A stretch of DNA of 64,000 nt from Xylanimonas ulmi (GTDB lineage Bacteria; Actinomycetota; Actinomycetes; Actinomycetales; Cellulomonadaceae). Positions 4,320-36,338 of this stretch are shown here, in pieces. Numbering within the stretch: the stretch's first letter is position 1; each line of letters opens with the position of its first letter. Location of the stretch: NCBI RefSeq assembly GCF_004216535.1, contig NZ_SGWX01000001.1, forward strand, positions 2,418,001 to 2,482,000. The letters are read 5' to 3'. Under the pieces are notes generated by a model, which was not told where the DNA came from, made no database searches, and saw only the letters and a list, made by a program, of their open reading frames with translations. Both the position numbers and the translations under genes were made by a program.

Positions 4320-4329
4320 GCCCGCGGGC

Positions 4330-5001: not shown

Positions 5002-5029
5002 GTCAGTGTCCTTGGAGGTGAGGGCCGGG

Positions 5030-6541
5030 TCAGGCGAGGGACCGCAGGGCTTCGGCCGGGCGCAGGCGGGCCGCTCGGCGGCCGCCGAAGACGCCCGCGA
5101 CGAGTCCGCCGAGGATCGCCAGGCCGACGGCCGCGACGACGATCCACACCGACACGGGCGCGTGCAGGACGACGTCGACCGTGGACGCCGCGGCGTCGCG
5201 CGCGGCGCCGAACGGGCCGCCGGCCCCGCCTGCGCCGCCAGCCAGCTGCCCACCGCCCTGCGCGGCGCCGCCGGCACCCGGACCGCCGAGCCGGAGCGCT
5301 CCACCGCCGGTCCCCCCGCTGAGCGTGATGCCTGCGAGGTTGATCGCCAGCACCGCGACGCCGCCGAGGATCACCCCCGTGACGCCGCCGATGGCCCCCT
5401 GCGCCACGGCCTCACCGGCCACCTGCCCGACCACGCGGCGACGCGGCCAGCCGATCGCCTTGAGGGTGCCGAGCTCGCGCGTGCGGCGGTTGACGCCGGA
5501 GACGGTGAAGAGGATCGCGAGTCCGAACGCCGCCACGAGCACGACGATCGACAGCGCGAGCCCGAGCTTCGAGATGAGCGACGACGCGGTGGCGAGCGAG
5601 CCCGAGACGTCGCCGGCGAGGTCGGCCTGTGTGGAGACCGACGCGTCGGGCAGGGCCGCCGCGATGGCGTCCTTGACGGCGTCGACGTTGGAGGACGAGT
5701 CGACCGAGACGTACAGGTCGGTGACCATGTCGGCCTGGTCGGACAGCGTCTGTGCGACCGCGAGCGGCATGTAGACGTTCGACGACGTCGCGACGCCCTC
5801 ACCGCTCGACGAGGCCACGACGCCGACCACCTCGAGGTCCGTGCCGCCGATGGTGACGGTGTCGCCGACCGCGATGTCGTTCTGGGTGGCGTACTGCTGG
5901 TCGAGGACGGCGACGTCCGCGTCGGCGTCGTCGGCGGCGAGGCCGCGGCCGTCCGCCACGACGACCGTGGTGAGCGGGCCGACGGCGTCGGCGCTCGGGT
6001 CGACGCCGCTGACGGTGACCTGTGTGATGCCGAAGGCTCCTCCCCCGAACGCCCGGCCACCGCCGTCGCCGTCAGCGGGTGGCCCGGCCTGCTGGTCCTG
6101 GCCGTCCGCGGGGGCCTGGGGCAGCTCGCCCGAGAACTCGGTGTTCTGGAGGCTGAGGGTCGCCGAGACGCCCGTGACGTGGTCGAGGGCCGCGACGGTG
6201 TCGAGGGCCGAGGCGTCGAAGGCCTGCGAGCCGATCTGGGTGGTCAAGCGGGACTGGGTGAGCTGGGTGGCGCCGTCGGCGTCGGTCGAGCCGCCGTCCT
6301 CGCCGAAGTCGAACCGCTGCCGCGGCCCGTCGCCCTGGCTGAAGTCCGCGGCCTGGTTGACCGTGATGTCGGTGCCGACGCCGTAGACCGAGGCGAGCAC
6401 GTCGCTCTGGGCCCGCTCAACACCGGAGGCGAAGGAGGAGACCACCATGACGAGCGCGATGGCGACGCCCAGTCCGGTGGCGACGACGACGGTCTGCTTA
6501 CGCCGGTGACGTAGCTCGCGGCGGAGGTAGGTGAGGAACAA
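5030..6541 (-). CDS. FtsX/MacB-type ABC transporter permease
   Basis: This 503-residue membrane protein has one N-terminal helix (TVVVATGLGVAIALVMVV), a large extracytoplasmic MacB-like core (about 45-320) and three C-terminal helices of the FtsX domain. It pairs with the ATPase gene downstream. The start is set at the TTG at 6541, which has an AGGAG five bases upstream; the frame stays open far beyond it but no better start fits. Between helices 3 and 4 lies a Gly/Ala-rich loop of about 40 residues (GGTGGGALRLGGPGAGGAAQ and onward), an unusual low-complexity insertion. The transported substrate is unknown. Confidence 0.88.
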   Translation of the reverse strand: MFLTYLRRELRHRRKQTVVVATGLGVAIALVMVVSSFASGVERAQSDVLASVYGVGTDITVNQAADFSQGDGPRQRFDFGEDGGSTDADGATQLTQSRLTTQIGSQAFDASALDTVAALDHVTGVSATLSLQNTEFSGELPQAPADGQDQQAGPPADGDGGGRAFGGGAFGITQVTVSGVDPSADAVGPLTTVVVADGRGLAADDADADVAVLDQQYATQNDIAVGDTVTIGGTDLEVVGVVASSSGEGVATSSNVYMPLAVAQTLSDQADMVTDLYVSVDSSSNVDAVKDAIAAALPDASVSTQADLAGDVSGSLATASSLISKLGLALSIVVLVAAFGLAILFTVSGVNRRTRELGTLKAIGWPRRRVVGQVAGEAVAQGAIGGVTGVILGGVAVLAINLAGITLSGGTGGGALRLGGPGAGGAAQGGGQLAGGAGGAGGPFGAARDAAASTVDVVLHAPVSVWIVVAAVGLAILGGLVAGVFGGRRAARLRPAEALRSLA

Positions 6542-12511: not shown

Positions 12512-13632
12512 CGGTTCGCTCCTTGCTCGGAGATCTCAGACGACTTCGAGGCTCGGCCGACGATCGACGCGACGCCAGCCTCGCTGGCCTGCCGCTCTGC
12601 CTCGGCCGCAGCAGCGCGCGCGGCGGAGATCACGGCATTGCGCTGCGCCTTCGAAACCCGTGTCGTCTTGGTCTTCGACGACGAGACCGAACGAGTGAGC
12701 AGGAAGTTGACGAGAGAGAAGGTCGCGATGACGGCCGCGAAGATCCAGCCGACTGCCGCCGCTTGGCCGAGGCGGTCCTGCCAGTCACCGAAGCCGAGGT
12801 TGTAGAGGTAGAGCACGACAGTGGTCCACTGGTTGTCGGCGCCGCCGCGACCGCCGCCGGTGCCGCCGCCGTCGAACATGCGGGCTTCGTCGAAGATCTG
12901 AAGACCGCCGATGGTCATGGTCAAGATGACGAAGATCATCGTCGGGCGGATGCTCGGGATCGTGACCGAGACGAATTGTCTGGCTCGGCTCGCGCCGTCG
13001 ACCGTGGCGGCCTCGTACAGCTCGCGCGGGACCGCCTGCATGGCCGCCAAGAGAATCAGGGCGTTGTAGCCCGTCCAGCGAAACACGACCATCGCGCCGA
13101 TAGCCATGTGTGACAGCAGGCGGTCCTGGAAGAACGGCGAGCTGACGTGTGTCCAGACTCCGATGTCTTGGAGGTTGGGCACCAGGAGGCCGAACTGGCT
13201 GAAGACCTGCCCGAAGATCATCGACGTCGCAACGGGCATCACCACGAACGGAATGAGGACGCTCATCCGCCAGAAGGTCTTGGCGTGCAGGTTCTGGTCG
13301 AGGATCGCAGCGATGACCAACGCGAGGATCAACTGAGGGACGGCGCCCCACAGGAAGATCGAGAAGGTGTTCTCAAGGGAGCGCCAGAACAAGGGCTGGC
13401 GCAGGACCCAGGTGAAGTTGTCGAGTCCGACGAAGTCACCCATTCCTGCGCGACGATGCCAGTCGTGAAGCGCCACCACGATATTGAAGAGGAGCGGAAA
13501 CGCCCCGAAGATCGCGAAGAGTATGAAGAACGGCGAGACGTAGAGGTACGGCGAGAGTCGGATGTCCCACCGCGAGAGTCGTTGTCCCCATCCCACGCGG
13601 CGCGCACTGCGCTGTGCCGCTGAGGTTGCCAT
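12508..13632 (-). CDS. Sugar ABC transporter permease, MalF type
   Basis: The 374-residue permease starts at the ATG at 13632 and has six membrane helices with the EAA loop at YEAATVDGASRARQFVSVTIP. Compared with typical MalF-type permeases it has an extra cytoplasmic C-terminal tail of about 55 residues (KTKTTRVSKAQRNAVISAAR and onward), basic then Ala/Glu-rich, and a Gly-rich periplasmic loop (GGGTGGGRGG). It overlaps the MalG-type gene by 4 bp. A stem-loop lies in the 119-bp gap to the binding-protein gene, a common way to make more binding protein than permease. Confidence 0.93.
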   Translation of the reverse strand: MATSAAQRSARRVGWGQRLSRWDIRLSPYLYVSPFFILFAIFGAFPLLFNIVVALHDWHRRAGMGDFVGLDNFTWVLRQPLFWRSLENTFSIFLWGAVPQLILALVIAAILDQNLHAKTFWRMSVLIPFVVMPVATSMIFGQVFSQFGLLVPNLQDIGVWTHVSSPFFQDRLLSHMAIGAMVVFRWTGYNALILLAAMQAVPRELYEAATVDGASRARQFVSVTIPSIRPTMIFVILTMTIGGLQIFDEARMFDGGGTGGGRGGADNQWTTVVLYLYNLGFGDWQDRLGQAAAVGWIFAAVIATFSLVNFLLTRSVSSSKTKTTRVSKAQRNAVISAARAAAAEAERQASEAGVASIVGRASKSSEISEQGANR

Positions 13633-13672
13633 GTCGGGCGCCTTCCGTGACGAGTGGTCGTGAGTGCTGGTG

Positions 13673-13715
13673 AGCAGGCCTGCGGCCGGCGAGGAGGACC
13701 GGCCACAGACCTGCT
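13673..13715 (-). terminator. Intercistronic stem-loop between binding-protein and permease genes
   Basis: AGCAGG (13673-13678) pairs with CCTGCT (13710-13715), and inside it GGCCGG (13684-13689) pairs with CCGGCC (13699-13704). It lies just downstream of the binding-protein stop codon on the transcribed strand. Such hairpins protect the upstream message or reduce read-through into the permease genes. Confidence 0.4.
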
Positions 13716-13751
13716 TCTCGGGCGAGGTCTGACGTCTCCCCGTCAGGAGGC

Positions 13752-15065
13752 TCAGTCGGCCGTTTCGAAGCCGAGCGCCTCGAAGTTGCTGACCACAGAG
13801 TCCCAAGCGCTCTCGGCGGTGGCGCCGCCCGACTCGACGAGGCGGATGCCGTCGGTGACGACCGTCTGGATGCCGGCGAAGTTCTCGCCGCGGAACCCGC
13901 CGGCGGCGGCGTCGCCGGCGGCTGCGGCGAGGTCGCCGTAGATCTGCCCGATGCGCTGGCCGCCGAAGAACTCGTTCTCCGTCTCGGCGATGTCAGCGCT
14001 CGACATGGCCTCCAGTTGCGAGGGGAACTGGCCAGTCGTGTGGAACCACTGGATGGCTGCCTCGGATGAGGTCAGGTGGTCGGCGAGCTTGACGGCCCAT
14101 TCGGTGTTCTCACCGGTGGCGGGCACGGAGAAGAAGGATCCGCCCCAGTTGCCACCGCCCTCGGGGAACGCGGAGGCGATACGCCAACCATCGACGCCAT
14201 CAGCGTTCTCCTGGATGATGCCTGCCATCCAGGCGGGGGTGATGACAGTGGCCCACTGCTCGTTCTGGAACCCGGCGCCCCAGTCGGCGTGACCAATCGC
14301 GATCCCCGCGGAGACGCCGTCCTCGGCCGCCTGAGCGAACATCATGAAGAGGTCCTTGACCTCGGCGTTGTCCGCCATGTTGTACGGCTTGCCCGACGCC
14401 GGGTCCTCGAACGCGGACGGGAGCAGGTTGATCGCAGCCTGGAAGGCGTTGGTCAGGGAGTCGACGAAGTAGTTGTCACTCGCCGCGACGTACTCGCGCC
14501 CGGCGTCCAGGAAGGTCTGCCAGGTGGCGTTGTCGCCGCCGATGAACTCACCGAAGGACTCCGGGTCGGTGACGCCGACGCTCGCGGTCATCTCCTGGTT
14601 GAAGGCGACGCCGAGCGGACCGATGTCCGTGCCGTACCCGGTGATCTTTCCGTCGACCGAGCCCTGCGTGACCTTCCAGTCAACCCAGCGGCCCGGGATC
14701 TCGGGCAGCTCAACCCAGTCCTCGGGGATGGCCATCATCTCCGTCCACCAGTCGAGTTCGATGAGGTGGACGTCGGACAGGCCAGCGCCATCGGCCGCGA
14801 GACCGTTGCGGAGCACGGTCTGCGCCGACGCGCCGTCGGGGAACGAGTTCACCACGACCTCGATGCCGTACTCCTCCTCGAACGAGTCGAGCAACTCCTG
14901 GGGGAAGTCCATCCAGGCGGCGACAGTCAACTGCGCCGGCTTGTTGTCCTCGGTGGCCTCACCGGCGCTGCCGCCGCCGCCCGCGCCGCCTCCGCAGGCG
15001 GTGAGGGCGAGAGCAGCCGTGGCCGCGAACCCAGCCGCTGCAGCGGCCTTCTTGCTGATCCTCAT
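13752..15065 (-). CDS. Sugar ABC transporter substrate-binding lipoprotein
   Basis: The 437-residue extracellular solute-binding protein (family 1 fold) has a signal peptide with lipobox LTAC (Cys24) and a Gly/Ser linker. The mature part starts PAQLTVAAWMDFPQELLDSF. Trp-rich segments such as LDWWTEM and DGWRIASAFPEGGGNWGGSF suit stacking on sugar rings. It is anchored outside the membrane and hands sugar to the two permeases encoded downstream. The position between GH39 and GH51 genes points to xylo- or arabinoxylo-oligosaccharides, which is inferred from context. Confidence 0.93.
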   Translation of the reverse strand: MRISKKAAAAAGFAATAALALTACGGGAGGGGSAGEATEDNKPAQLTVAAWMDFPQELLDSFEEEYGIEVVVNSFPDGASAQTVLRNGLAADGAGLSDVHLIELDWWTEMMAIPEDWVELPEIPGRWVDWKVTQGSVDGKITGYGTDIGPLGVAFNQEMTASVGVTDPESFGEFIGGDNATWQTFLDAGREYVAASDNYFVDSLTNAFQAAINLLPSAFEDPASGKPYNMADNAEVKDLFMMFAQAAEDGVSAGIAIGHADWGAGFQNEQWATVITPAWMAGIIQENADGVDGWRIASAFPEGGGNWGGSFFSVPATGENTEWAVKLADHLTSSEAAIQWFHTTGQFPSQLEAMSSADIAETENEFFGGQRIGQIYGDLAAAAGDAAAGGFRGENFAGIQTVVTDGIRLVESGGATAESAWDSVVSNFEALGFETAD

Positions 15066-24699: not shown

Positions 24700-25713
24700 G
24701 TGGCACGAGTCAGGCTCGTCGACGTCGCGGCCAGGGTCGGCGTCAGCGCCAAGACGGTCTCGAACGTCGTCCACGGCACCGGGATGGTCTCCGACGCGGT
24801 GCGCGCCAAGGTCCTGGCGGCGATCGACGATCTCGGCTACCGGCCCAACCTCGCCGCCCGACAACTGCGCAGCGGGACGAGCGGGCTCGTTGGCCTCGCG
24901 ATCCCTGACCTGCGTGAGCCGTACTTCGCCGAGTTCGCGTCGGGGTTCTTCACCGCTGCCCAACGCCGGGGCCTGACCGTGCTGGTAAGCCAGACCCACG
25001 GCGACCGTGTCGCCGAACGCAGAATCAGCCAAGGTGCCGGACTGCCCGCGGTCGACGGACTGGTGCTCAGCCCCCTCGCACTGACGACGCAGGACCTCGG
25101 CGAGCGGACAAGCTCGATCCCGCTCGTGCTCATCGGCGAGCACGGCGAGGCGCTCGCGACCGAGCGCGTGCCGCACGTCGGAATCGACAACGTCGCGGCG
25201 GCGAGGGCTGCCACCGAACACCTGCTTGACCTCGGCCGCAGCCGCGTCGCTGTCATCGGCGCACAGGATCACGGGTCGACGGCGACCTCCCGTCTGCGCC
25301 TGGCCGGCTATCGCGCGGCGCTCGAGGCCGCGGGCGTGCCATTCGACCCGGCGCTCGTCGGCGCCGTCACCGACTTCAACAGGGCCGAGGGGTCTGCCGC
25401 CGCCGAACGCTTACTGACCTCTGGAACAGAGTTCGACGGGCTGTTCTGCTTCAGCGACACCTTGGCGTTCGGCGCCCTGTACACCCTCGCGACCCACGGC
25501 GTCGCAATTCCCGAGCACGTCAGCGTCATCGGCTTCGACGACATCGGGGAGGGCCGCTACTCCATGCCCCCCTTCGCCTCCGTGAACGTCAACTCCGAGG
25601 GCACGGCCGAACACATCCTGGACATCTTCGCCGACGGCGCCCCCAGTCACAGCCGGCTCGTCGAGGTGGCCTTCACAGTGCTCAGCGCTGAGGCCCGGGC
25701 GAGCCGCCACTGA
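24700..25713 (+). CDS. LacI-family regulator of the GH43 locus
   Basis: The 337-residue regulator has an HTH at the N-terminus (LVDVAARVGVSAKTVSNVV), the hinge LAARQLRSG, and a sugar-binding core ending in HVSVIGFDDIGEGRYSMPPF. The GTG at 24700 has GGAGG eight bases upstream. It is divergent from the GH43 operon, with two matching palindromes in between, so it is the likely repressor of that operon and of itself. The inducer is not evident. Confidence 0.92.
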   Translation: MARVRLVDVAARVGVSAKTVSNVVHGTGMVSDAVRAKVLAAIDDLGYRPNLAARQLRSGTSGLVGLAIPDLREPYFAEFASGFFTAAQRRGLTVLVSQTHGDRVAERRISQGAGLPAVDGLVLSPLALTTQDLGERTSSIPLVLIGEHGEALATERVPHVGIDNVAAARAATEHLLDLGRSRVAVIGAQDHGSTATSRLRLAGYRAALEAAGVPFDPALVGAVTDFNRAEGSAAAERLLTSGTEFDGLFCFSDTLAFGALYTLATHGVAIPEHVSVIGFDDIGEGRYSMPPFASVNVNSEGTAEHILDIFADGAPSHSRLVEVAFTVLSAEARASRH

Positions 25714-25831: not shown

Positions 25832-25848
25832 GCAACCCTGATGCAACC
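25832..25848 (-). promoter_or_regulatory. Candidate aco-regulon operator upstream of acoX
   Basis: On the minus strand this reads GGTTGCATCAGGGTTGC: two GTTGC half-sites in direct repeat, 11 bp apart. The same 17-bp layout occurs at 31298 and 33525, next to the other acetoin genes. It ends 36 bp before the acoX start. Confidence 0.55.
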
Positions 25849-25884
25849 CTGTCGGCCACCCCTTTCGCCACGTCCACTGGAGCC

Positions 25885-26949
25885 GTGACCGCAATCACAG
25901 ACGAGGTGACGGTCGGGGTGGTCGCCAACCCCGCGTCGGGGCGCGACATCCGCCGCCTGGTCGCGGCCGCGTCGGTCTTCCCCACCGCGGAGAAGGCCAA
26001 TATGGTGCGCCGGATGCTGGCGGCGTTCGCCGCGGTCGGCGTCGGGCACGCGATGCTCAACACCGACAAGACGGGCATCTCGGCGTCCGTGCTGCGCGCG
26101 GCGCACACCCGGCGCCCCGGGCACGACCCGGACTGGCCGCGCCTGACGTTCTGCGACGAGGACCGACGGCGAGGCACCGCACAGGACACGGTCGACGCGG
26201 TGCGCCGCATGGTCGCCGCCGGCGCCCGCGTGATCGTGTGTCTGGGCGGAGACGGCACCGCTCGGGTCGCCGCCGACGCGTGCGGGGACGTCCCGATGCT
26301 GGCGCTGTCGACGGGCACCAACAACGCCTTCCCGCAGATGCGCGAGGCCACGGTGGCGGGCCTGGCCGCCGGGCTGGTTGCCGTCGGCGCTGTCGACCCG
26401 GCGACGACGGTGCGCCGCGCCGGGGCGCTCGAGGTCCGCACGCCGGGGCGGCGCGAGCTCGCGCTGGTGGACGTGTGCGTCTCGTCCGCGCAGCATGTTG
26501 GCTCGCGCGCGCTGTGGCGCCCCGACGACCTGCTGACGCTCGTGTGCTCGTTCGCCGAGCCCGACGGCGTCGGGCTGTCGAGCGTCGCCGGGCTGCTGTG
26601 CCCGAGCCCGCGCGAGGACCCGGACGGCGTCGTGCTGGACCTGGCGCCGCCCGAGCGGGCCCGCTACGTCGTGCGCGCGTCGATCGCGCCCGGGCTGGTC
26701 GTGCCTGTCGGGGTCGACGCATTCCGCCCGCTGCGCCCCGGCGAGACCCTGACTCTCCCCCGCTCGAACGGCGTCATCGCCGTCGACGGTGAGCGTGAGA
26801 TCGAGCTGTGGGGCGGGCGGCCGGCGACCGTCGCCCTGGTGCGCGACGGCCCGCGCTGCGTCGACGTCGCCGCGGTGATGCGCGAGGCCGCGCGCACCGG
26901 CGTCCTGAGCATTCGGCAGACAACACCGACGAACTGGAGGACCTCATGA
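25885..26949 (+). CDS. acoX: AcoX, NAD-kinase-like protein of the acetoin operon
   Basis: The 354-residue protein belongs to the ATP-NAD/AcoX kinase family. It has the N-terminal VGVVANPASGRDIRRLVAAA and the nucleotide-binding CLGGDGTARV (about 114-123), followed by ALSTGTNNAFP. The GGDGT motif is shared with NAD and diacylglycerol kinases. AcoX is found in many acetoin operons but its reaction has not been settled. The GTG at 25885 begins the operon, and its stop overlaps the acoA start by 4 bp (ATGA at 26946). It is cytoplasmic. Confidence 0.85.
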   Translation: MTAITDEVTVGVVANPASGRDIRRLVAAASVFPTAEKANMVRRMLAAFAAVGVGHAMLNTDKTGISASVLRAAHTRRPGHDPDWPRLTFCDEDRRRGTAQDTVDAVRRMVAAGARVIVCLGGDGTARVAADACGDVPMLALSTGTNNAFPQMREATVAGLAAGLVAVGAVDPATTVRRAGALEVRTPGRRELALVDVCVSSAQHVGSRALWRPDDLLTLVCSFAEPDGVGLSSVAGLLCPSPREDPDGVVLDLAPPERARYVVRASIAPGLVVPVGVDAFRPLRPGETLTLPRSNGVIAVDGEREIELWGGRPATVALVRDGPRCVDVAAVMREAARTGVLSIRQTTPTNWRTS

Positions 26950-27944
26950 CCGACACCATGCCGGCTCCCACGGGATCCGCTGACCTGGGCCCGGAGCGGC
27001 TCTTGGACGCCTACCGGATGATGCGCACGATCCGTGAGTTCGAGGAGCGTGTGCACGCCGAGTTCGCGACGGGCGACATCCCGGGCTTCGTGCACCTGTA
27101 CGCGGGCGAGGAGGCGTCCGCCGCGGGCGTGTGCGTCACCCTCGACGAGCGCGACACCATCTCCAGCACGCACCGCGGCCACGGTCACTGCATCGCCAAG
27201 GGCGTCGAGGTCAAGGGCATGATGGCCGAGATCTACGGCCGCGCCACGGGCACCTGCCGCGGCAAGGGCGGCTCGATGCACATCGCCGACCTGTCCAAGG
27301 GGATGCTCGGCGCCAACGGCATCGTCGGCGGCGGCCCGCCCCTGACGTGCGGCACCGCGCTGGCCGCGAAGTTGAGCGGCACGGGCGGCGTCGGCGTCAC
27401 CTTCTTCGGTGACGGCGCGAGCAACCAGGGCACGACGCTGGAGTCGATGAACCTCGCCTCGGTGTGGAACCTGCCGGCCGTGTTCGTCGCGGAGAACAAC
27501 GGCTACGCCGAGGCGACGGCGAGCACGTGGTCGGTCGCGACCGACAACATCGCCGACCGCGCCGCCGGGTTCGGCATGCCGGGCGTCATCGTCGACGGCT
27601 TCGACTTCTTCGCGGTGCACGAGGCCGCGCGTGAGGCGGTCGGGCGGGCGCGCGAGGGCGGTGGGCCGACGCTCATCGAGGTCAAGTTCACGCGGTACTT
27701 CGGCCACTTCGAGGGCGACCAGCAGACCTACCGCGCCGACGAGGTCGCCGACGCGCGCGCCAACCTCGACTGCCTCAAGCGCTTCCGCGCGCGCGTCACG
27801 CAGACGGGCGAGCTCACCGGCGCCCAGCTCGACGGCGTCGACGCCGACGTCGCGCGCCTCATCGACGAGGCGGTCGCCGAGGCCAAGGCGGCGCCGCCAC
27901 CGACCGCCGCGGACCTGGAGACCGACGTCTACGTCGTCTACTGA
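26946..27944 (+). CDS. acoA: Acetoin dehydrogenase E1 component, alpha subunit
   Basis: The 332-residue protein is the thiamine-diphosphate-binding E1 alpha subunit. GDGASNQG begins the ThDP/Mg motif, which ends in the ENNGYA asparagine pair. STHRGHGHCIAKG and RGKGGSMH are also conserved. With AcoB it cleaves acetoin and passes the acetyl unit to the lipoyl arm of AcoC, giving acetyl-CoA and acetaldehyde. The ATG at 26946 overlaps the acoX stop. The gene order acoX-A-B-C and the AcoC fusion downstream separate it from pyruvate dehydrogenase E1. Confidence 0.93.
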   Translation: MTDTMPAPTGSADLGPERLLDAYRMMRTIREFEERVHAEFATGDIPGFVHLYAGEEASAAGVCVTLDERDTISSTHRGHGHCIAKGVEVKGMMAEIYGRATGTCRGKGGSMHIADLSKGMLGANGIVGGGPPLTCGTALAAKLSGTGGVGVTFFGDGASNQGTTLESMNLASVWNLPAVFVAENNGYAEATASTWSVATDNIADRAAGFGMPGVIVDGFDFFAVHEAAREAVGRAREGGGPTLIEVKFTRYFGHFEGDQQTYRADEVADARANLDCLKRFRARVTQTGELTGAQLDGVDADVARLIDEAVAEAKAAPPPTAADLETDVYVVY

Positions 27945-27986
27945 CCTGGCCCACCCCGAACCCACGACCCACCCTCAGGAGCGCAC

Positions 27987-29000
27987 ATGGCACGCACGAT
28001 CAGCTATCGCGAGGCGATCAACGAGGCGATCTCGCTGGAGATGAGGCGCGACCCCAGCGTCATCGTCATGGGCGAGGACAACGCCGGCGGCGAGGGCAGC
28101 CCCGGCGACGACGACGCCTGGGGCGGCGTCCTCGGCGTCACCAAGGGGCTGTACCACCAGTTCCCCGGCCGGGTGCTGGACACCCCCATCTCGGAGTCGG
28201 CCTTCATCGGCGCCGCGATCGGCGCGGCGACGGCGGGCCTGCGCCCGGTGGCCGAGCTCATGTTCATCGACTTCATGGGCGTGTGCTTCGACCAGATCTT
28301 CAACCAGGCCGCCAAGTTCCGGTACATGTTCGGCGGCAAGGCGCGCACACCCGTGGTCATCCGCACCATGTACGGGGCGGGGTTGCGCGCCGCGGCGCAG
28401 CACTCGCAGGCGCTGTACCCGATCTTCACGCACATCCCCGGGCTCAAGGTCGCCGTCCCGTCGAGCCCGTACGAGGCCAAGGGCCTGCTCGCCGCGGCCA
28501 TCCGCGACGACGACCCGGTCATCTTCTGCGAGCACAAGGCCCTGTACGACACGCAGGGCGAGGTGCCCGAGGGCGCGTACGCCCTGCCGTTCGGTGAGGC
28601 CGACGTCGTCCGTGACGGCGACGACCTGACGATCGTGGCGATCGGGCGGATGGTGTCGTTCGCCCGGGACGCGGCAGAGGACCTGGCCCGCCAGGGGGTG
28701 GAGGCCGAGATCATCGACCCGCGCACCACCAGCCCGCTCGACACGGCCACGATCCTGGAGAGCGTCGAACGGACGGGTCGGCTCGTCGTCGTCGACGAGG
28801 CCTCGCCACGGTGCAACGTCGGGACCGACATCGCCGCCCTGGTCGCCCAGGAGGGCTTCGGCTCGCTGCGCGCGCCGATCCAGGTCGTCAGCCCGCCGCA
28901 CACCCCGGTCCCGTTCTCGCAGGCGCTCGAGGACGTCTACATCCCCGACGCCCAGCGCGTCGTCAACGCCGCCAAGACCGTCCTGGACTGGGTCCGCTGA
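27987..29000 (+). CDS. acoB: Acetoin dehydrogenase E1 component, beta subunit
   Basis: The 337-residue E1 beta subunit has the N-terminal TISYREAINEAISLEMRRDP, the catalytic-loop region SESAFIGAAIGAATAGLRPV and a C-terminal transketolase-type domain (VVVDEASPRCNVGTDIAALV). It forms the heterotetrameric ThDP enzyme with AcoA. The ATG at 27987 follows AGGAG with a short spacer (CTCAGGAGCGCAC). Its TGA stop overlaps the acoC ATG by one base. Confidence 0.93.
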   Translation: MARTISYREAINEAISLEMRRDPSVIVMGEDNAGGEGSPGDDDAWGGVLGVTKGLYHQFPGRVLDTPISESAFIGAAIGAATAGLRPVAELMFIDFMGVCFDQIFNQAAKFRYMFGGKARTPVVIRTMYGAGLRAAAQHSQALYPIFTHIPGLKVAVPSSPYEAKGLLAAAIRDDDPVIFCEHKALYDTQGEVPEGAYALPFGEADVVRDGDDLTIVAIGRMVSFARDAAEDLARQGVEAEIIDPRTTSPLDTATILESVERTGRLVVVDEASPRCNVGTDIAALVAQEGFGSLRAPIQVVSPPHTPVPFSQALEDVYIPDAQRVVNAAKTVLDWVR

Positions 29001-30130
29001 TGTCGGTCATCTGGGTCGTCATGCCCAAGTGGGGGCTGTCGATGGAGTCCGGCCGCATCACCGAGTGGCTCGTGAGCGAGGGCGACGAGGTCGCCGAGGG
29101 CGACGAGCTGTGCGAGATCGACACCGAGAAGATCGCGGGCGCGCTGGAGTCGACGGCGGACGGCACGCTGTGCCGGGTCATCGCCGCGGTCGGCGAGGTG
29201 GTCCCGGTCGGGGCCACGATCGCGCTCGTGGCCGACGCGGCGGTCGCGGAGGCCGCCGTCGAGGAGGCCGCGCGGGCCGCGCGCGAGGAGCTCGACGCGG
29301 GGGTGGTCGAGGAGGTCGCCGGTCCCGAGGTCGGCTGCGTCGAGGTCGCGGGGCGCTCGCTCGCCTACGCCCGCAGCGGCGAGGCGGGCACCGCCGTCGT
29401 GCTGGTGCACGGCTTCGGCGGTGACAAGAACTCCTGGCTGTTCGTGCAGGAGCCGCTTGCGGCCGACCACGTCGTGGACGCGATCGACCTGCCGGGTCAC
29501 GGGGAGTCGGCGACCGACGTGGGCGACGGGTCGCTCGCGACGCTCGCGGCGGCGGTCACCGGCTACCTTGACGCGCGCGGGATCGACCGGGCCCACCTGG
29601 TCGGCCACTCGCTGGGCGGCGCCGTGGTCACGGCGGCCGCCGCGGCGGCGCCCGACCGCGTGCTCTCGCTCACGCTCGTGGCGCCCGCGGGGTTCGGCGC
29701 CGCGGTCAACGCCGCCTACCTGCGGGGGTTCGCGGGGGCGACGTCGCGCCGCGAGCTCCAGCCACACCTGCGGGCGCTGTTCGCCGACGAGTCGCTGGCC
29801 ACCCGCCAGCTCGCCGACGACCTCATGCGCCACAAGCGGCTCGACGGCGTCGCGGAGGCGCTCGCCGCGCTGCTGGGCACGCTGCTGACCGACGACGACC
29901 GCGCCGGGCTCGACGCGCTGAGCCTGCTCGACGGGCTCGACGTGCCGGTCATGGTCGTGTGGGGCCGCCAGGACGCGGTGCTGCCGTTCACCAACACGGC
30001 GGCGTTCGACGGGCGGCGTCAAGCCGGGCAGTGCGAGGTCCGCGCGGTCGACGACGCCGGCCACATGGTCCATATGGAGCGGCCGTCGGCGGTGGTCGAG
30101 GCGGTGCGCGCGCTGACGCGCCCGCGCTGA
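29000..30130 (+). CDS. acoC: Acetoin dehydrogenase E2 component: lipoyl domain fused to an alpha/beta hydrolase
   Basis: The 376-residue protein has a lipoyl domain (1-78) with K44 in IDTEKIAG, a short Ala/Glu linker, and an alpha/beta-hydrolase domain (about 115-376) with oxyanion HGFGG and nucleophile S204 in GHSLGG. The acid is in the WGRQDAVLPF region and the histidine in DDAGHMVHMERP. This fusion, lacking the usual CoA-acyltransferase core and E1/E3-binding domain, is the classic AcoC form of acetoin complexes. It needs lipoylation, for which a ligase is encoded at 33573. No E3 is encoded nearby. Confidence 0.93.
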   Translation: MSVIWVVMPKWGLSMESGRITEWLVSEGDEVAEGDELCEIDTEKIAGALESTADGTLCRVIAAVGEVVPVGATIALVADAAVAEAAVEEAARAAREELDAGVVEEVAGPEVGCVEVAGRSLAYARSGEAGTAVVLVHGFGGDKNSWLFVQEPLAADHVVDAIDLPGHGESATDVGDGSLATLAAAVTGYLDARGIDRAHLVGHSLGGAVVTAAAAAAPDRVLSLTLVAPAGFGAAVNAAYLRGFAGATSRRELQPHLRALFADESLATRQLADDLMRHKRLDGVAEALAALLGTLLTDDDRAGLDALSLLDGLDVPVMVVWGRQDAVLPFTNTAAFDGRRQAGQCEVRAVDDAGHMVHMERPSAVVEAVRALTRPR

Positions 30131-30164
30131 CGCGCCGCCAGGGCCGTCGGCGCCGCCAGGGCCG

Positions 30165-31220
30165 TCAGGGCCGCACGAGGATCTTGACGTTCTCCTCCTT
30201 GTTGCCGATGAGCTCGTCGAAACCCTTGGCGACGATGTCGGCCAGGTCGATCCGCCCCGTGATGAACTGGTGCGGGTCGACCAGGCCGTCGGCGACCATC
30301 TGGATGGTCGCGGGGTGGTCGCCCGCGTACGCGAGCGAGCCGAGCACGTTGACCTCGCGGAAGACCAGATCGTTCATCGCGACCGTGGCCTCGTGCCCCC
30401 AGATGGCCACATTGACGCACGTGCCGCCCACGCGCGTGGAGCGCACGGCGGCCCGCAGGACGGCGTCGACGCCCGCGCACTCGAACGAGACGTCGGCGCC
30501 GCGCCCCGCGGTCAGCTCCATCACCGCGTCGACGACGTCGATGGCGCCCGGGTCGATCACGTGCTCCGCCCCGGCTGTCACGGCCTTGGCCTTGCGGACC
30601 TGCGCGGGCTCGACGGCGATGACCTGCTCGACGCCGGCGGCCCGCAGCGCGGCGGTCGTGACCAGCCCGATCGGACCGGCGCCGAAGACGAGCGCGGTGT
30701 CGCCGGGCCGCGCGCCCGAGAGCCGGACCGCGTGGTGGGCGACGGCGAGCGGCTCGACGAGCGCGCCGACGTCGGTGCCCAGGTCCCCCAAGGGGTGCAC
30801 CCAGCGGGTCTCGGCCACGACGTAGCGTGAGAACCCGCCACCGAAGCCCGAGAGCCCGACGAAGCCGAGCGTCGCGCACACGTTGTAGCGCCCGCGCTCG
30901 CACGCGTCGCAGCGCCCGCACACGATGTACGGCTCAACGACGACGCGGTCGCCCACGGCGACGCCCTGCGCGCCCTCGCCGACCTCGGCGACGACGCCGG
31001 CGAACTCGTGGCCGAGCGTGACGGGGACCGACTCACCGGTGAGCGGATGGGGTGAGCCCGCAGGAGGGGCGAAGATCGGCCCGTCGAGATACTCGTGCAG
31101 GTCGGTGCCGCAGATCCCGCACCACTCGACCTCGACTTTGACCGTGCCCGGTCGCACCTGCGGCTCGGGGACGTCATCGATCCGGATGTCGCCGCGGCCG
31201 TGGAAACGCGCTGCCCTCAT
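30165..31220 (-). CDS. 2,3-butanediol dehydrogenase, zinc-dependent MDR family
   Basis: The 351-residue medium-chain dehydrogenase has catalytic zinc ligands in CGICGTDLHEYLDGP and TLGHEFAG, four structural-zinc cysteines in CGRCDACERGRYNVC, and an NAD-binding FGAGPIGLVTTAALRAAG. LHEYLDGPIFAPPAGSPHPL is characteristic of 2,3-butanediol dehydrogenases. It would oxidise butanediol to acetoin for the AcoABC complex. The ATG at 31220 has GGAGG five bases upstream. It is convergent with acoC and divergent from the GAF regulator. Confidence 0.92.
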   Translation of the reverse strand: MRAARFHGRGDIRIDDVPEPQVRPGTVKVEVEWCGICGTDLHEYLDGPIFAPPAGSPHPLTGESVPVTLGHEFAGVVAEVGEGAQGVAVGDRVVVEPYIVCGRCDACERGRYNVCATLGFVGLSGFGGGFSRYVVAETRWVHPLGDLGTDVGALVEPLAVAHHAVRLSGARPGDTALVFGAGPIGLVTTAALRAAGVEQVIAVEPAQVRKAKAVTAGAEHVIDPGAIDVVDAVMELTAGRGADVSFECAGVDAVLRAAVRSTRVGGTCVNVAIWGHEATVAMNDLVFREVNVLGSLAYAGDHPATIQMVADGLVDPHQFITGRIDLADIVAKGFDELIGNKEENVKILVRP

Positions 31221-31297
31221 GGTCACCTCCGCCTGGGGAACGCGGCGAACGCCGCCGCGAGACGGCCAGCACAGCGCGCCCGCGCCCGGCGCGGGAG

Positions 31298-31314
31298 GGT
31301 TGCGCCGTTGTTGC
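31298..31314 (+). promoter_or_regulatory. Candidate aco-regulon operator between butanediol dehydrogenase and regulator genes
   Basis: GGTTGCGCCGTTGTTGC has the two GTTGC half-sites 11 bp apart, as upstream of acoX and lplA. It lies 78 bp upstream of the dehydrogenase start and 117 bp upstream of the regulator start. Confidence 0.55.
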
Positions 31315-31335
31315 CTCCCGGTTTGGTTGCCCCAG

Positions 31336-31351
31336 TGTGACGGTTGTCACA
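31336..31351. promoter_or_regulatory. CRP/GlxR-type binding site
   Basis: TGTGA-CGGTTG-TCACA matches the TGTGA-N6-TCACA consensus of CRP-family regulators exactly. It lies between the divergent butanediol dehydrogenase and regulator genes, so carbon-source (cAMP) control of acetoin use is likely. Confidence 0.65.
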
Positions 31352-31430
31352 TTTGGGCGTCGGTGGGCACTATGGGGGACCGCACCATCCGATGGGGCCG
31401 CAACGACGCGGCTGGAAGAGGGTGATTGGC

Positions 31431-32678
31431 GTGGCCCGGTTCGAGGCGATCCGCCCTGGCACGGACCTGTCGCGCTACGCGCGCGAGCTGGCCCGGGTGC
31501 ACGACGCCGTCGTCGCGGGCGCCCGACCCCACACGCCGCCGCGCGCGATCGTGTCACGCTCGTGGGCGCGAGTGCTGCGGGCGGGCCTGGACCCGTCGCG
31601 GCTCAACGCCCGTGACCGGCTGCCCCGCAGCGAGGTCGAGCGGCGTCGGGCGCGCTCGGCGCTGAGCCTGGTCATCGGCGACCTCGTCCAGACCGTGTCG
31701 GCCGTGGCTGACGCCTCCCCGTTCCTCATGGTCGTCACGGACGCCGACGGTGTCCTGCTGTGGCGCGTGGGCTCCCCCGCCGTCCGCGGGAGGGCCGACC
31801 GCCTCGGCTTCACCGAGGGCGCGCGCTGGACGGAGCACCAGGTGGGGACCAACGCGATCGGCACAGCGCTCGCCGAGGCCGCCCCCGTCCAACTCTTCGC
31901 GGGCGAGCACTTCGAGGAGAGCCAGCACGCGTGGTTCTGCGCCGCGCACCCGATCCACGACCCGCGCGACGGAAGGCTGCTGGGGATCGTCGACGTGAGC
32001 GGCCCCGCCCTGACACTGCACCCGGCCATCGGCGCGCTCGTGGCCACCAGCGTGCGGCTCGCTCAGGCGCAACTGTGGCAGCACCTCCAGCGACGCCTGG
32101 AGCGGCTGCGCAGGCGCGCGGCGCCCGTGCTGGCGACGATCACAGGACCGGTCCTGCTCGTCGACGTGGACGGTTGGGTCGCCCACTACTCGGGCGTCCC
32201 GCCACGGGCGCGCATCGAGGCCCCCCGCGACGACACACCGCTCGCGGTCCCCGGCATGGGCCTGTGCGTCCCCGAGCGCCTCGACGACGGCTGGCTGGTG
32301 CGGCCCGGCCGCGGTGGCCACGCGCTCGCGGCGGTGCTCGATCTGACGGCCTCGCCCGTGCTGGAGGTCCGCTCGCACGACGCCGCCTGGCGCACGCCGC
32401 TGTCGCACCGGCACGCCGAGATCCTCGACCTCCTACACAGTGCGGGGCGCTCCGGGCTGTCGGCGGGCCAGCTCAGCCGGGCCCTGTACGGCGACCCCGA
32501 CCACACGGTGACCGTCCGCGCCGAGATCTCCCGGATGCGCCGGCAGGTCGGCGCGCTCGTGAGCGCGCGCCCCTACCGCGTCGCCGACGGCGTCGCGCTC
32601 TCGGTCACCGGGCCGCCGTCGACCCCGCGGGCGTGCCCTCAGACGAACAGCATCCCGCCGTCGACCAGGACCGACTGA
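31431..32678 (+). CDS. GAF-domain regulator of acetoin catabolism (AcoR-like, no AAA+ domain)
   Basis: The 415-residue protein has the N-terminal AcoR-type region (IVSRSWARVLRAGLDP), a GAF domain (about 95-210) with ARWTEHQVGTNAIGTALAE and the AHPIHDPRDGRLLGIVDVSG segment, and a C-terminal winged helix (about 315-395, HAEILDLLHSAGRSGLSAGQ). Classical AcoR has a sigma-54 AAA+ domain and a Fis HTH. Here both are missing, as in many actinobacterial relatives. It probably senses acetoin through GAF and binds the GTTGC repeats. The GTG at 31431 follows GGAAGAGG. Its last 40 bp overlap the convergent SDR gene. Confidence 0.82.
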   Translation: MARFEAIRPGTDLSRYARELARVHDAVVAGARPHTPPRAIVSRSWARVLRAGLDPSRLNARDRLPRSEVERRRARSALSLVIGDLVQTVSAVADASPFLMVVTDADGVLLWRVGSPAVRGRADRLGFTEGARWTEHQVGTNAIGTALAEAAPVQLFAGEHFEESQHAWFCAAHPIHDPRDGRLLGIVDVSGPALTLHPAIGALVATSVRLAQAQLWQHLQRRLERLRRRAAPVLATITGPVLLVDVDGWVAHYSGVPPRARIEAPRDDTPLAVPGMGLCVPERLDDGWLVRPGRGGHALAAVLDLTASPVLEVRSHDAAWRTPLSHRHAEILDLLHSAGRSGLSAGQLSRALYGDPDHTVTVRAEISRMRRQVGALVSARPYRVADGVALSVTGPPSTPRACPQTNSIPPSTRTD

Positions 32679-33412
32679 CCCGTCATGTAGTCGGAGTCGG
32701 GACCGGCGAGGAACGAGACCAGTTTGGCGACGTCGTCACCCGTCGAGACGCGCCCGAGCGTGATGCCGGCGGCCATCTCCCGCATCGACTCCCCCGTGTC
32801 GACGCCGTTGATGGCGCCGAGGTCACGGTCGATCTCCACCCACATCGCGGTGTCGACGATGCCCGGACAGTAGGCGTTGACCGTGATGCCGTGCGGCGCC
32901 CACTCCTGCGCAGCCGCCTGGGTCAGCGCCCGCACCGCGAACTTGCTGGAGCTGTAGACGCCGAGCAGGGCGAACCCCTTGTGGCCCGCGATCGACGCGG
33001 CGCCGATGATCTTGCCTCCCGAGCCTTGCGCGATCATCTGTCGCGCGGCCTCGGTGTAGCAGAGGAAGACGCCGCGCCCGTTGACGGCGTGCACGCGGTC
33101 GTACTCCTGTGGGCTCACGTCAAGCAGCGCCTTGGTCTGGGCGATCCCGGCGTTGGCGACCATGACGTCGAGCGACCCGAGCCGTTCGGCGGTGTCGGCG
33201 ACCAGCGCCCGCACCGAGGCCAGGTCCGACACGTCACCGTGCAGCGCGACGCTGCGCACGCCGTGCGCCTGCGCCTCCTGGCGCGTGGCCTCCAACTCGG
33301 CGGACATCGACGGCAGATCGGACAGGGCGACGTTGTGGCCGTCCTGCGCCAGCCGCAGCGCGATGGCCCTGCCGATCCCTCGGGCGGCGCCGGTGACATG
33401 GGCGACGGTCAT
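32639..33412 (-). CDS. Short-chain dehydrogenase, acetoin(diacetyl) reductase / meso-butanediol dehydrogenase-like
   Basis: The 257-residue SDR has the NAD-binding TGAARGIG (7-14), NAG at 87-89 and the catalytic S140, Y153 and K157 (GVYSSSK). PHGITVNAYCPGIVDTAMW and a GESMREMAAGITLGRVSTGDD-type segment resemble BudC/diacetyl reductase proteins. It interconverts diacetyl, acetoin and butanediol stereoisomers. The ATG at 33412 has AGGAGGAGA upstream. It is divergent from lplA, and the shared intergenic region carries the GTTGC direct repeat, tying it to the acetoin regulon. Confidence 0.88.
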   Translation of the reverse strand: MTVAHVTGAARGIGRAIALRLAQDGHNVALSDLPSMSAELEATRQEAQAHGVRSVALHGDVSDLASVRALVADTAERLGSLDVMVANAGIAQTKALLDVSPQEYDRVHAVNGRGVFLCYTEAARQMIAQGSGGKIIGAASIAGHKGFALLGVYSSSKFAVRALTQAAAQEWAPHGITVNAYCPGIVDTAMWVEIDRDLGAINGVDTGESMREMAAGITLGRVSTGDDVAKLVSFLAGPDSDYMTGQSVLVDGGMLFV

Positions 33413-33524
33413 GGGACTCTCCTCCTGGATCGTGCTGGACGGGCTCCGCCATGGCGTGGGACAGCGCGGTGGCGTGGGACTGTGTGCGCCTTGAGCCTGC
33501 GCAGCGCGCCGCGGGGCCGCCAAG

Positions 33525-33541
33525 GGTTGCCCGGTTGTTGC
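33525..33541 (+). promoter_or_regulatory. Candidate aco-regulon operator between SDR and lplA genes
   Basis: GGTTGCCCGGTTGTTGC is nearly identical to the site at 31298 (15 of 17 positions). It ends 31 bp before the lplA start and lies 113 bp from the SDR start. Confidence 0.55.
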
Positions 33542-33572: not shown

Positions 33573-34364
33573 ATGCTGCTGTTGAGCGCGCACGACGACG
33601 CGGGCGGCGCCGGCCTGGACCCGGCGCTCGATCTTGCCCTCGCGCACGCGCTGGTGCGGCGCGCGGGCGCGGGCGACCTGTCGGGCGCCGTGCGCGTCTC
33701 CCGACCGGCCGCGCCCGTGGTGGTCTTCGGGCGGCGCGACGTGCGCCACGCGCGCTTCGCGGCCGCCGCCGACGCGGCACGCGCCGCCGGGTTCGAGCCC
33801 CTGGTTCGCGCGGTCGGCGGCCTGCCGGTCGCCTACACGCGCGCCGCCGTCGTCGTCGACCACGTCGGCACGGGCGAGCGCCCGGGCGACGGCATCGAGC
33901 GGCGCTTCGCCGACTTCGGCGACCTGTACGCGCGCGCCCTGCGGCGCTTGGGCGTCGCCGCGCAGGTCGGGCCGGTGCCGGGCGAGTACTGCCCGGGCGC
34001 ACACAGCGTCAACGCGCGCGGGCAGGTGAAGTTGGTCGGCACCGCCCAGCGGGTGGTACGCGACGCGTGGCTGTTCAGCGCGCTCGTGGTCGTCGACGAC
34101 GCCGACCGGGTCCGCGCGGTGCTCGGGGACGTGTACCGGCTGCTCGACCTGCCCTTTGACGCGCGGTCGGTCGGCGCTCTGGCCGACGAGGCGCCCGGGA
34201 CCGACGTCGAGGCCGTGCGCGACGCGGTGCTCGCGGTGTGCGGGGAGCGCGACCCGCTGGTGCCCGCTCCACTCGACGACGCGACGCTCGCGCTGGCCAG
34301 GACGCTGGCCGCCCAGCACCGCGTCACCGTCGGCGCTGTCCCGGGCCCACGCTCACCTGGCTGA
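33573..34364 (+). CDS. lplA: Lipoate-protein ligase A-type enzyme
   Basis: The 263-residue protein has the biotin/lipoate ligase fold. SRPAAPVVVFGRRDVRHA is the ligand-binding loop, VRAVGGLPVAYT the substrate site, and EYCPGAHSVNARGQVKLVGTAQRV contains the conserved lysine (QVKLVGTAQR). It would attach lipoate to K44 of AcoC. The ATG at 33573 lacks a strong ribosome-binding site. The position beside an acetoin reductase gene and an aco-type operator supports a dedicated role, but general lipoylation or an octanoyltransferase role is not excluded. Confidence 0.82.
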   Translation: MLLLSAHDDAGGAGLDPALDLALAHALVRRAGAGDLSGAVRVSRPAAPVVVFGRRDVRHARFAAAADAARAAGFEPLVRAVGGLPVAYTRAAVVVDHVGTGERPGDGIERRFADFGDLYARALRRLGVAAQVGPVPGEYCPGAHSVNARGQVKLVGTAQRVVRDAWLFSALVVVDDADRVRAVLGDVYRLLDLPFDARSVGALADEAPGTDVEAVRDAVLAVCGERDPLVPAPLDDATLALARTLAAQHRVTVGAVPGPRSPG

Positions 34365-34493: not shown

Positions 34494-36338
34494 TCAGAAG
34501 GGTGGATCGCGGAGATCGTGGGGGTTGTGGTGGTGGGGGCCTGGGACGGTGGCGTGTTCGGGGTGGGGGTCGTGGAGGGTGTCGGGGTGGGGTGGGGGTG
34601 CGTCGTCGTCGGGGTCGGGGGGCCAGAAGGGGGTGGGTCGTGGGGGTGTGGTGTGGATGGTCGCGGGGACTTGGGCGGGGTGGGTGGTGTGGGCGCGTGC
34701 GGTGGGGGTGGTCCAGGTCAGCGCGCCGGTGTGGTCGGGTTGGCGCACGGTGAAGCGGGTCTGGTGTTTGAGCACATGGTGGTGGCGGCACAGGTGGGCG
34801 AGGTTGTCGGGTGTGGTGGGGCCGTGGTCTTGATGGGCGGTGGTGTGGTCGACGTCGGTTCCGGCCGCGGGCCTGGTGCAGCCGGGGAATCGGCAGGTGG
34901 TGTCGCGGACCTTGAGGTAGTGGCGTAGGTCTGCGGGTGGGCGGTAGGTCTGGGCGCTGATGGCCAGGACGTCGCCGGTGTGGGGGTGGGTGAGCAGGCG
35001 GGTGAAGGAGGTGGCCAGTCCGGCCAGCTCGCGCGCGGTCTCGGGGTCGATCGGGACGGTCCCGTCCAGCAGGGCGGGCTCGTCGGTCCGCCCCAGCAGC
35101 GTCAGGACCGGGACCGTGACGTAGATCTTCGGGCGCACCGACCGGGCCAGGGCGGCGAGGCTGAACTCCGTGCGCTCGAACGCCCCATCGAGTCCGTCAC
35201 CGGCGGCCCGGTCGGCGCCCTCGACACCCGCGGCGCCGGCGCTCCCGGCGCTCCCGGCGCTCCCAGCGCTCCCAGCACTCCCAGCACTCCCAGCGCTCCC
35301 AGCGGCTGCGGTGGCGGTGGTGGTGTGGTGGTCGAGGGCGCCGTCGTCGAGCAGGAGGGCGCAGGCGACGTCGGCGCGTAGTTGGCCCAGGGTGCGCCCG
35401 TCGCCGTGTCCGCGGACGGTCTGGGCGACGGTGGTCAGGCGGTCGGTGATCGCGTGGACGGCCGGTGCGGGGGCGAACAGGGTCAGGTAGGCCATGCCGT
35501 CGGCGACCGCGTCGGCCCACACACCCCGTTTGGTCGCGGCCTCGCCGTGGCGCACCTCGGGCGGCGCCGGGCAGACTCGCTCGCGCGACCGAGCGAGCGT
35601 GCGCTTGAACGTGCGCGGGTTCTGGCGCCCCGCCGCCGCGACGACGTCGCCGTCGAGTCGGGCGGCGGTGCGGGCGTCCAGCTCGGCGACCGCGTCCGCC
35701 ACGGCGCCCGCGTTGGCCCAGGAGACCTGCCCGGCCACGGCGGCGCACAGGGTGCGCGGGGCGCGTGCGACCAACGCCTGAGCCTGGTCCATGCGCTGGG
35801 AGACGGCCTGCTCGCTCTCGCGCACGGCCAGCGCCACGTCCGCCACGACCGCGCGGCGGGCCAGCTCGCGCCGACGCCGCGGACCGGCCGCGCCCACCAT
35901 CGCCTCACCCGTGGCGAGCAGATCCTGCGCCCGCAGCGCCTGGCGGCGCGCGCGCTCCAGCAACACCCCCTCCAGCGCCGCGAGCGCGTTCTGCCGGCGC
36001 CGCACCCCCTCGAGCGCGTCGAGCGTCTCGTCCAGATCGCCCACACCGACGCGTCCACGCACCTCCACCAGGCGGGCGACCTCCGCCGGGAGCGCCGCGA
36101 CGCCCTCGGCGTCGAGCGCGCACGGGTCAAGGACCGAGCGTCCCAGCATCGCGTCGGCCAACCCCGGTTGGTCCAACAGGCGCACCGCGAGCGACCCGTC
36201 ATCCTCGGCCCGCACATGAGCCAACGCCGCCAGCCGCGCGCTGACCTCGGCGCGGAACGCCGCCCGCGCGGCCGCAGCCGCGCGCTGTGCGGCCTCACCG
36301 GGACCTTCGGCCCCCACCGTCGCTGCGTCCTCGCTCAC
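34494..36338 (-). CDS. DUF222 / 13E12-repeat HNH endonuclease-like protein
   Basis: The 614-residue protein has an N-terminal helical DUF222 domain (about 60-320), a Gly-Ser-Ala repeat, and a C-terminal HNH motif in CRFPGCTRPAAGTDVDHTTA followed by NLAHLCRHHHVLKHQ. The tail is a Pro/His/Asp low-complexity stretch (THPAQVPATIHTTPPRPT and onward), which makes the plus strand strongly G/T-rich. The family is widespread and multicopy in actinobacteria, and a DNA-cutting role is presumed. The GTG at 36338 lies only 13 bp from a perfect LexA box, leaving little room for a ribosome-binding site, so the message may be leaderless. Confidence 0.88.
   Translation of the reverse strand: MSEDAATVGAEGPGEAAQRAAAAARAAFRAEVSARLAALAHVRAEDDGSLAVRLLDQPGLADAMLGRSVLDPCALDAEGVAALPAEVARLVEVRGRVGVGDLDETLDALEGVRRRQNALAALEGVLLERARRQALRAQDLLATGEAMVGAAGPRRRRELARRAVVADVALAVRESEQAVSQRMDQAQALVARAPRTLCAAVAGQVSWANAGAVADAVAELDARTAARLDGDVVAAAGRQNPRTFKRTLARSRERVCPAPPEVRHGEAATKRGVWADAVADGMAYLTLFAPAPAVHAITDRLTTVAQTVRGHGDGRTLGQLRADVACALLLDDGALDHHTTTATAAAGSAGSAGSAGSAGSAGSAGSAGAAGVEGADRAAGDGLDGAFERTEFSLAALARSVRPKIYVTVPVLTLLGRTDEPALLDGTVPIDPETARELAGLATSFTRLLTHPHTGDVLAISAQTYRPPADLRHYLKVRDTTCRFPGCTRPAAGTDVDHTTAHQDHGPTTPDNLAHLCRHHHVLKHQTRFTVRQPDHTGALTWTTPTARAHTTHPAQVPATIHTTPPRPTPFWPPDPDDDAPPPHPDTLHDPHPEHATVPGPHHHNPHDLRDPPF
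35241..35303 (-). repeat. 9-bp tandem repeat coding for Gly-Ser-Ala units
   Basis: Seven units of GCTCCC(G/A)GC (two begin with A) lie in frame in the DUF222 gene and encode the linker GSAGSAGSAG. Unit number is likely to vary between strains through slippage. Confidence 0.8.

Follow-up and report, generated by a model that had tools for sequence, protein, structure and literature searches.

The window examined here is a stretch of 64,000 nucleotides from the actinobacterium Xylanimonas ulmi (contig NZ_SGWX01000001.1, positions 2,418,001 to 2,482,000). It contains a cluster of acetoin and butanediol genes with a gene for a one-component regulator in its midst, and our subject is a short direct repeat, GGTTGC-N6-GTTGC, that recurs in this cluster and that comparison with related genomes suggests to be the operator of the regulator. 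In window coordinates, the locus comprises the following genes and sites.

25832..25848, site 1, putative operator before acoX; the target strand (+) reads GCAACCCTGATGCAACC; period 11, exact match
25885..26949 (+), acoX, NAD-kinase-like, GTG start (PF01513, 46 bits)
26946..27944 (+), acoA, E1 alpha-like subunit (PF00676)
27987..29000 (+), acoB, E1 beta-like subunit (PF02779, PF02780)
29000..30130 (+), acoC, acetoin dehydrogenase E2 (NF011457, 416.7 bits against a cut-off of 307)
30165..31220 (-), bdh, zinc-dependent (butanediol-type) dehydrogenase (PF08240, PF00107)
31298..31314, site 2, putative operator between bdh and the regulator gene; the bdh strand (-) reads GCAACAACGGCGCAACC; period 11, exact match
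31325..31330 (+), lone extra half-site GGTTGC, recognised by sequence, 16 bp from the nearer half-site of site 2
31431..32678 (+), regulator, DhaR-like GAF sensor with a C-terminal winged-helix-like domain (profile and fold comparisons)
32639..33412 (-), SDR of the acetoin reductase type (TIGR02415, 304.7 bits, barely above the cut-off of 304.35)
33525..33541, site 3, putative operator between the SDR gene and lplA; the SDR strand (-) reads GCAACAACCGGGCAACC; period 11, exact match
33573..34364 (+), lplA-like (lipoyl-ligase-like) gene (PF21948)

Exact matches to GGTTGC-N6-GTTGC are found in the window only at these three sites (minus strand at site 1, plus strand at sites 2 and 3), as the initial annotation had stated, and its further statements that the half-sites are spaced by 11 bp in each of them and that sites 2 and 3 are identical at 15 of 17 positions also proved accurate. 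Dinucleotide shuffles of the window contain on average 0.01 exact matches, and none of 100 shuffles reaches three. The source genome, a single contig of 3,965,098 bases, holds five exact matches compared with none for the reversed pattern, and the two that lie outside the window fall within called genes. The leading GG required in the initial annotation caused a fourth site with the GCAAC core to be missed (genome positions 108600-108615), which is flanked by a paralogue of the regulator on one side and an acetaldehyde dehydrogenase gene on the other. Genome-wide frequency by itself is weak evidence for an operator; position is a stronger argument, given that the three sites occupy the three intergenic regions of the locus.

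A scan of named genomes yielded 77 loci with relatives of the regulator, 1.43 Mb in total, and in 58 of these a direct repeat of GTTGC/GCAAC with a period of 10 or 11 lies beside the regulator gene, which supports the earlier proposal that the motif is the best candidate operator of this AAA-less AcoR-like protein. The 86 kb of regulator flank contain 63 repeat sites and the remaining 1.35 Mb contain 9, a 109-fold difference in density. Period 10 accounts for 46 GTTGC pairs and period 11 for 26, and the next commonest periods up to 60, namely 48 (18 pairs), 57 (13) and 39 (11), are multiples of three, as in coding DNA. In an unbiased ranking of 12,800 pentamer-period combinations, GCAAC at period 10 comes first, with 36 loci (20 loci at period 11), and among 30 anagrams of the half-site only CAACG, which is the same word shifted by one base, exceeds three loci (17). 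An exact repeat is present somewhere in 61 of the 77 loci, and among the 16 without one, L060-L062 carry a period-10 repeat with one mismatch. L089, L095 and L111, which also belong to these 16, have exact repeats upstream of the regulator with a period of 9 instead of 10.

Wider samples gave comparable results. In 22 whole genomes TGCAAC-N4-TGCAAC has 23 matches, distributed over 18 genomes, and the control has none; in the order sample, matching one table against another shows the exact form beside the gene in 16 of the 30 other genomes whose regulator match is strong; it is present somewhere in 73 of 396 genomes; and among the new class-wide loci (L180-L208), 19 of 29 have an exact repeat near the regulator. 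Moreover, acoX matches were detected in three of the 77 loci (L036, L038 and L078), and the repeat precedes acoX in all three, so that the conservation in front of orthologous acoX, on which the initial annotation had made its proposal depend, is observed in related genomes. A class-wide search for further acoX operons returned the source genome only (1 of 394 at E 1e-40). As a separate observation, one locus (L144:1382-1406) contains three consecutive TGCAAC half-sites with a pitch of 10 bp, which suggests that more than two protomers can line up.

Read toward the target, the repeat takes the form TGCAAC-N4/5-TGCAAC, often with a -10-like hexamer at a fixed distance downstream. For the counts that follow, the hexamer was defined as T[AG]NNNT, offsets were taken from the start of the proximal half-site with the GCAAC strand toward the target, and near-identical sites were removed beforehand, as they also were for the TTG/TTC element and the Streptomyces inverted half-sites discussed below. 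In the acetoin group, the hexamer lies at +30 to +32 in 18 of 27 sites and never at four control offsets; among same-order orthologues, 10 of 13 sites show the same placement (controls 0-1), as do 5 of 14 sites of Pseudonocardia/Amycolatopsis. At +16, the hexamer is found in all 21 sites of a sister group (controls up to 3) and in 8 of the 9 sites of a Herbidospora type (at most 2 in controls), which places the repeat over the -35 region. At +7, 17 bp ahead of the hexamer, TTG or TTC occurs in 17 of 30 acetoin-group sites. This element may be a -35 or a part of the operator, an ambiguity that arises because in Streptomyces it is equally frequent (11 of 14) with no hexamer after it, and its place there often reads as an inverted half-site. 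Within the window, two -10-like hexamers were located.

25873..25878 (+), TCCACT, possible -10 of acoX, at +30 from site 1; six bases before the GTG, which would imply a leaderless-like transcript
31268..31273 (-), TGTGCT, -10-like, at +30 from the proximal half-site of site 2 toward bdh, as in acetoin-group relatives

The counterpart of the former in L038 is TCTGCT-N6-GTG at +31. Toward the SDR gene, site 3 is followed by TTGGCG at +7, with no good -10 at +30. At the level of sequence, then, the comparison establishes the association of the repeat with the regulator, the period of the repeat and its fixed place before a -10-like hexamer in relatives.

The period itself varies. In a tree of the regulators, the window regulator (period 11) falls inside a clade of 28 rows, and for the other 27 the record is 22 exact period-10 repeats beside the gene, three with a mismatch and two farther off. 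(Alignment A1 comprises the window regulator and 50 of the 74 orthologue rows that were usable; L051, L079 and L091, which have stops within the stretch used, were left out of both the alignment and the first tree, and L107, L110 and L112, short or distant, were left out of the first tree.) The 23 same-order orthologues (L144-L166) all have period 10, 16 exactly and seven with one mismatch. Spacing by 11 bp, as the initial annotation described it, is therefore not a rule of the family, period 10 being commoner among those close orthologues in which a site can be recognised. The two period-10 cores of the source genome lie away from the three window sites; thus, the change of period appears to affect the entire regulon. 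Sites 2 and 3 are very alike, and one may be a copy of the other.

Among 104 regulators with a single measured period, 45 are at period 11, 56 at 10 and three at 9. Those at period 11 have either an alanine before an [RK]PY-type wing motif (19) or a loop longer by one residue (26), and neither trait occurs at period 10 or 9. On a tree in which L119 is an artefact row (branch length 10), wing trait and period go together in four of four independent pairs (p 0.125, too few to decide). The pairing of the longer loop with period 11 held in two further cases (L009 and L113) and rests largely on one clade. The alanine was rejected as the determinant of the period: all three regulators with alanine and a site among those added later (L190, L191 and L201) have period 10, and L202, without alanine, has period 11.

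With respect to the protein, the sensor spans about residues 34-263 and the winged-helix-like domain about residues 323-375 on the profile. The sensor part matches Escherichia coli DhaR both by profile (4lrx, E 3.3e-14) and by fold (Foldseek E 1.3e-15), and the score of the regulator on the model NF008485 is 66.7 bits, far under the cut-off of 551. At E 0.001 there is no Pfam match for the regulator, whether taken as 415 or 444 amino acids, the AAA+ domain included; no N-terminal receiver domain was matched by Pfam, the N-terminal part being DhaR-like instead; and the bacterial transcriptional activation (BTA) domain of Pfam is absent from both the window regulator and the paralogue P0002. A SARP-like BTA tail had been suspected by eye in the paralogue, and Pfam found none. 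The GAF domain of Pfam is above its cut-off in three relatives and below it in the window regulator itself. For the C-terminal domain, the best profile match is AfsR (E 0.007) in a list that also includes unrelated RING proteins; VicR and YycF are matched at E 0.6-0.8; the fold matches include GlnR, PhoB and RstA, at template modelling (TM) scores of 0.58-0.63 with no significant E value and with other folds interleaved; and Trans_reg_C scores 15.2 bits, beneath its cut-off of 26.2. Weak as these tests are, they converge on an OmpR/SARP-like winged helix as the probable identity of the C-terminus. The predicted structure has a confidence (predicted local distance difference test, pLDDT) of 88 for the whole protein and 91 for the DNA-binding domain. 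Sigma54 was undetected in the source genome (PF04552, 0 of 1), and the same search was positive in four of 14 control genomes.

These features relate the regulator to several known systems. The SARP activators employ direct repeats 11 or 22 bp apart, the last of them 8 bp from the -10, and bind as a side-by-side dimer, which in addition holds region 4 of sigma (PMC10936776). Like the SARP AfsR (PDB 8hvr; PLoS Biol 2024, PMC10936776), the window system appears to combine a winged-helix protein with direct repeats 11 bp apart near a weak -10. Unlike AfsR, its sensor is an N-terminal DhaR-like GAF domain, Pfam finds no BTA domain, the half-site is TGCAAC, the acetoin-group repeat lies upstream of the -35 rather than over it, and period 10 is common; moreover, counted from where the half-site starts, the -10-like hexamer stands at +30 in the acetoin group and at +16 in the sister group. 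Given that no BTA domain was found, the regulator is not a proven SARP. PhoB binds a direct repeat in tandem (PMC3348028) and needs a strict spacing to the core promoter (PMC10294691). The probable winged helix, the direct-repeat DNA pattern and the strict core-promoter spacing are shared with PhoB/OmpR response regulators, and tandem binding is predicted here as well, but the window regulator has no receiver match, a GAF-like mode of sensing and a different half-site. With the sigma54 activators AcoR and DhaR (PMC3162934; PDB 4lrx), it shares the sensor half and, for AcoR, acetoin genes as targets; however, the absence of an AAA+ match and of sigma54 in the genome sets it outside this class, and its operator lies beside a sigma70-type -10. 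Apparently the same kind of architecture, an AcoR-like regulator joined to an OmpR/CadC-type helix-turn-helix (HTH), is present in Mycolicibacterium chubuense, for which a review describes AcoR-like proteins with a CadC1 HTH, calls experimental evidence for their role lacking and, in the portion available, gives no operator (PMC8784404). In the open-access PMC papers searched, we found no description of a tandem TGCAAC operator for such regulators.

Taken together, these data make it fairly likely, in our assessment, that the regulator encoded at 31431-32678 uses the three sites as its operators and activates acoX-acoABC, bdh and probably the SDR gene via a sigma70-type polymerase. We attach high confidence to the identity of the operator, moderate confidence to activation and low confidence to the inducer; binding, activation rather than repression, and the nature of the inducer are what we infer from the comparison. 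Specifically, the DhaR/AcoR-like GAF domain would sense a metabolite, most likely acetoin, butanediol or a relative, and the C-terminal winged helix would bind two tandem TGCAAC half-sites, one helical turn apart on the same face of the DNA, as PhoB or the SARPs do. The half-site pair would lie immediately before the -35 region, with a constant interval to a weak -10 hexamer, and, given this fixed placement, the bound regulator would be expected to recruit the ordinary sigma70-type RNA polymerase to acoX-acoABC and bdh, and probably to the SDR gene.

Several observations weigh against this proposal. With one mismatch allowed, the window still has three matches, and 15 of 100 shuffles equal that number (mean 1.28), so that the case from the window depends on the exact form of the motif. 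Genome-wide, one-mismatch matches number 54 compared with 80 for the reversed control, and the core GCAAC-N6-GCAAC occurs six times compared with five. Of the 77 loci, 19 have no exact period-10 or period-11 repeat in the flanks examined, and ten, mostly from Pseudonocardia, have no convincing repeat, several Pseudonocardia loci having none even when mismatches are allowed. The -10-like hexamer accompanies only one of 14 Streptomyces sites and, in the window, T[AG]NNNT occurs at +30 only at site 2, site 1 having TCCACT and site 3 nothing. Orientation toward the target was rejected as a universal rule: it is followed by 58 of 72 sites, yet the neighbours at discriminating sites are 14 for and 13 against, and we retain it only where a -10 is recognisable. 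Finally, the fold and profile matches of the DNA-binding part are each non-significant alone.

An alternative that we consider unlikely is that the repeat is indeed the operator of the regulator, with the protein acting as a repressor or mainly as an autoregulator that is released by the inducer. The site often lies between the regulator and a divergent neighbour, in L038, L040 and several Streptomyces loci the called genes are such that the regulator-side site could act only on the regulator gene itself, and the sister-group repeat overlies the -35 region, all of which would suit a repressor or an autoregulator; a repeat that directly precedes the -35 region and keeps a constant interval to a weak -10 fits an activator, and site 1 would govern acoX, away from the regulator gene. 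Still less probable, in our view, is that the sites belong to another DNA-binding protein, such as the paralogue near 107-108 kb of the source genome, or to a network in which both proteins read one word. The paralogue does have the same core with period 11 beside it, and a period-11 core occurs near such proteins in 24 of 29 family-search loci, but close orthologues of the window regulator retain the adjacent repeat and the distance to the -10 is specific to each group. A chance or compositional coincidence, which would accommodate the genome-wide parity of the core with its reversed control and the lack of any excess with one mismatch, is very improbable in view of the positions and conservation of the sites and is contradicted at the family level by the flank density in the 77 loci.

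Returning to an activating operator, we lean, by a modest degree, toward the broader hypothesis that the AAA-less AcoR-like proteins of actinobacteria form a one-component class in which the sensor of a sigma54 activator became joined to an OmpR/SARP-type winged helix, with control moved from sigma54 to sigma70. The class would share an operator code, tandem TGCAAC half-sites spaced by one turn and set at a constant distance to the -10, with at least two promoter geometries, and in X. ulmi the period would have changed from 10 to 11 at all three sites together. Relatives of the regulator were detected in 179 of 394 sampled genomes of the class at E 1e-20, a count in which many matches cover the sensor half only and which may include other architectures. 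Near-identical repeats adjoin relatives of the sensor in many other actinobacteria, so that the repeat looks like a shared switch. On comparative grounds we regard it, with high confidence, as a genuine and conserved operator, in a system whose parts are combined in an uncommon way. A readable operator with a fixed promoter geometry could render the targets of relatives predictable from sequence and offer parts for ketone- or diol-responsive switches; it also opens to direct test the idea that a sensor passed from sigma54 to sigma70 control.

As for the targets, the geometry of the sites points to acoX, bdh and perhaps the SDR gene. The inclusion of the SDR gene in the regulon, claimed by the initial annotation, is supported in part: in L072 and L078, bdh and an SDR gene (55-56% identity) follow in a row downstream of one site, but the SDR promoter in the window is weak. 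The same claim for lplA is not supported: tblastn (E 1e-8) detected no lplA match in any of the 77 loci, with flanks that extended to 10 kb at most, and the GCAAC strand, which points to the target wherever a promoter can be recognised, would face the SDR gene at site 3. In many orthologue loci, the rightly oriented neighbour is a gene of about 600-620 amino acids, and in others it is bdh or acoX; the two neighbours of about 608 amino acids that were tested (L045:8014-9840 and L073) match flavin-dependent monooxygenase/oxidoreductase families. The substrate of this monooxygenase-like neighbour might reveal the inducer. A window gene of 607 amino acids (34494-36317) resembles this target in length and was rejected, as it matches DUF222/HNH.

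In the sister group, both neighbours tested (L110 and L113) are aldehyde dehydrogenases, and the neighbour of the paralogue in the source genome scores above the cut-off for the acetaldehyde dehydrogenase ExaC. This locus probably represents a second regulon with the same operator word:

L113:2777-4084, GAF-type paralogue, with a site at 4101-4116 reading TGCAACGCAGATGCAAC and an ExaC-type gene at 4185-5708; about 107,276-110,207 in the source genome

A few further observations concern the surroundings of such sites. In L040, a second DhaR-like regulator (13275-14459) has its own period-11 site directly upstream (13224-13239), and the first regulator there has period-10 sites. In the Herbidospora type, the operator-adjacent gene (L098:9396-9728) encodes a YbaB/EbfC-like nucleoid protein. 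In the window, the DUF222/HNH endonuclease-like gene mentioned above follows lplA on the minus strand, and a LacI-family regulator gene (24700-25713), whose product might likewise control the acoX region, ends about 120 bp ahead of site 1.

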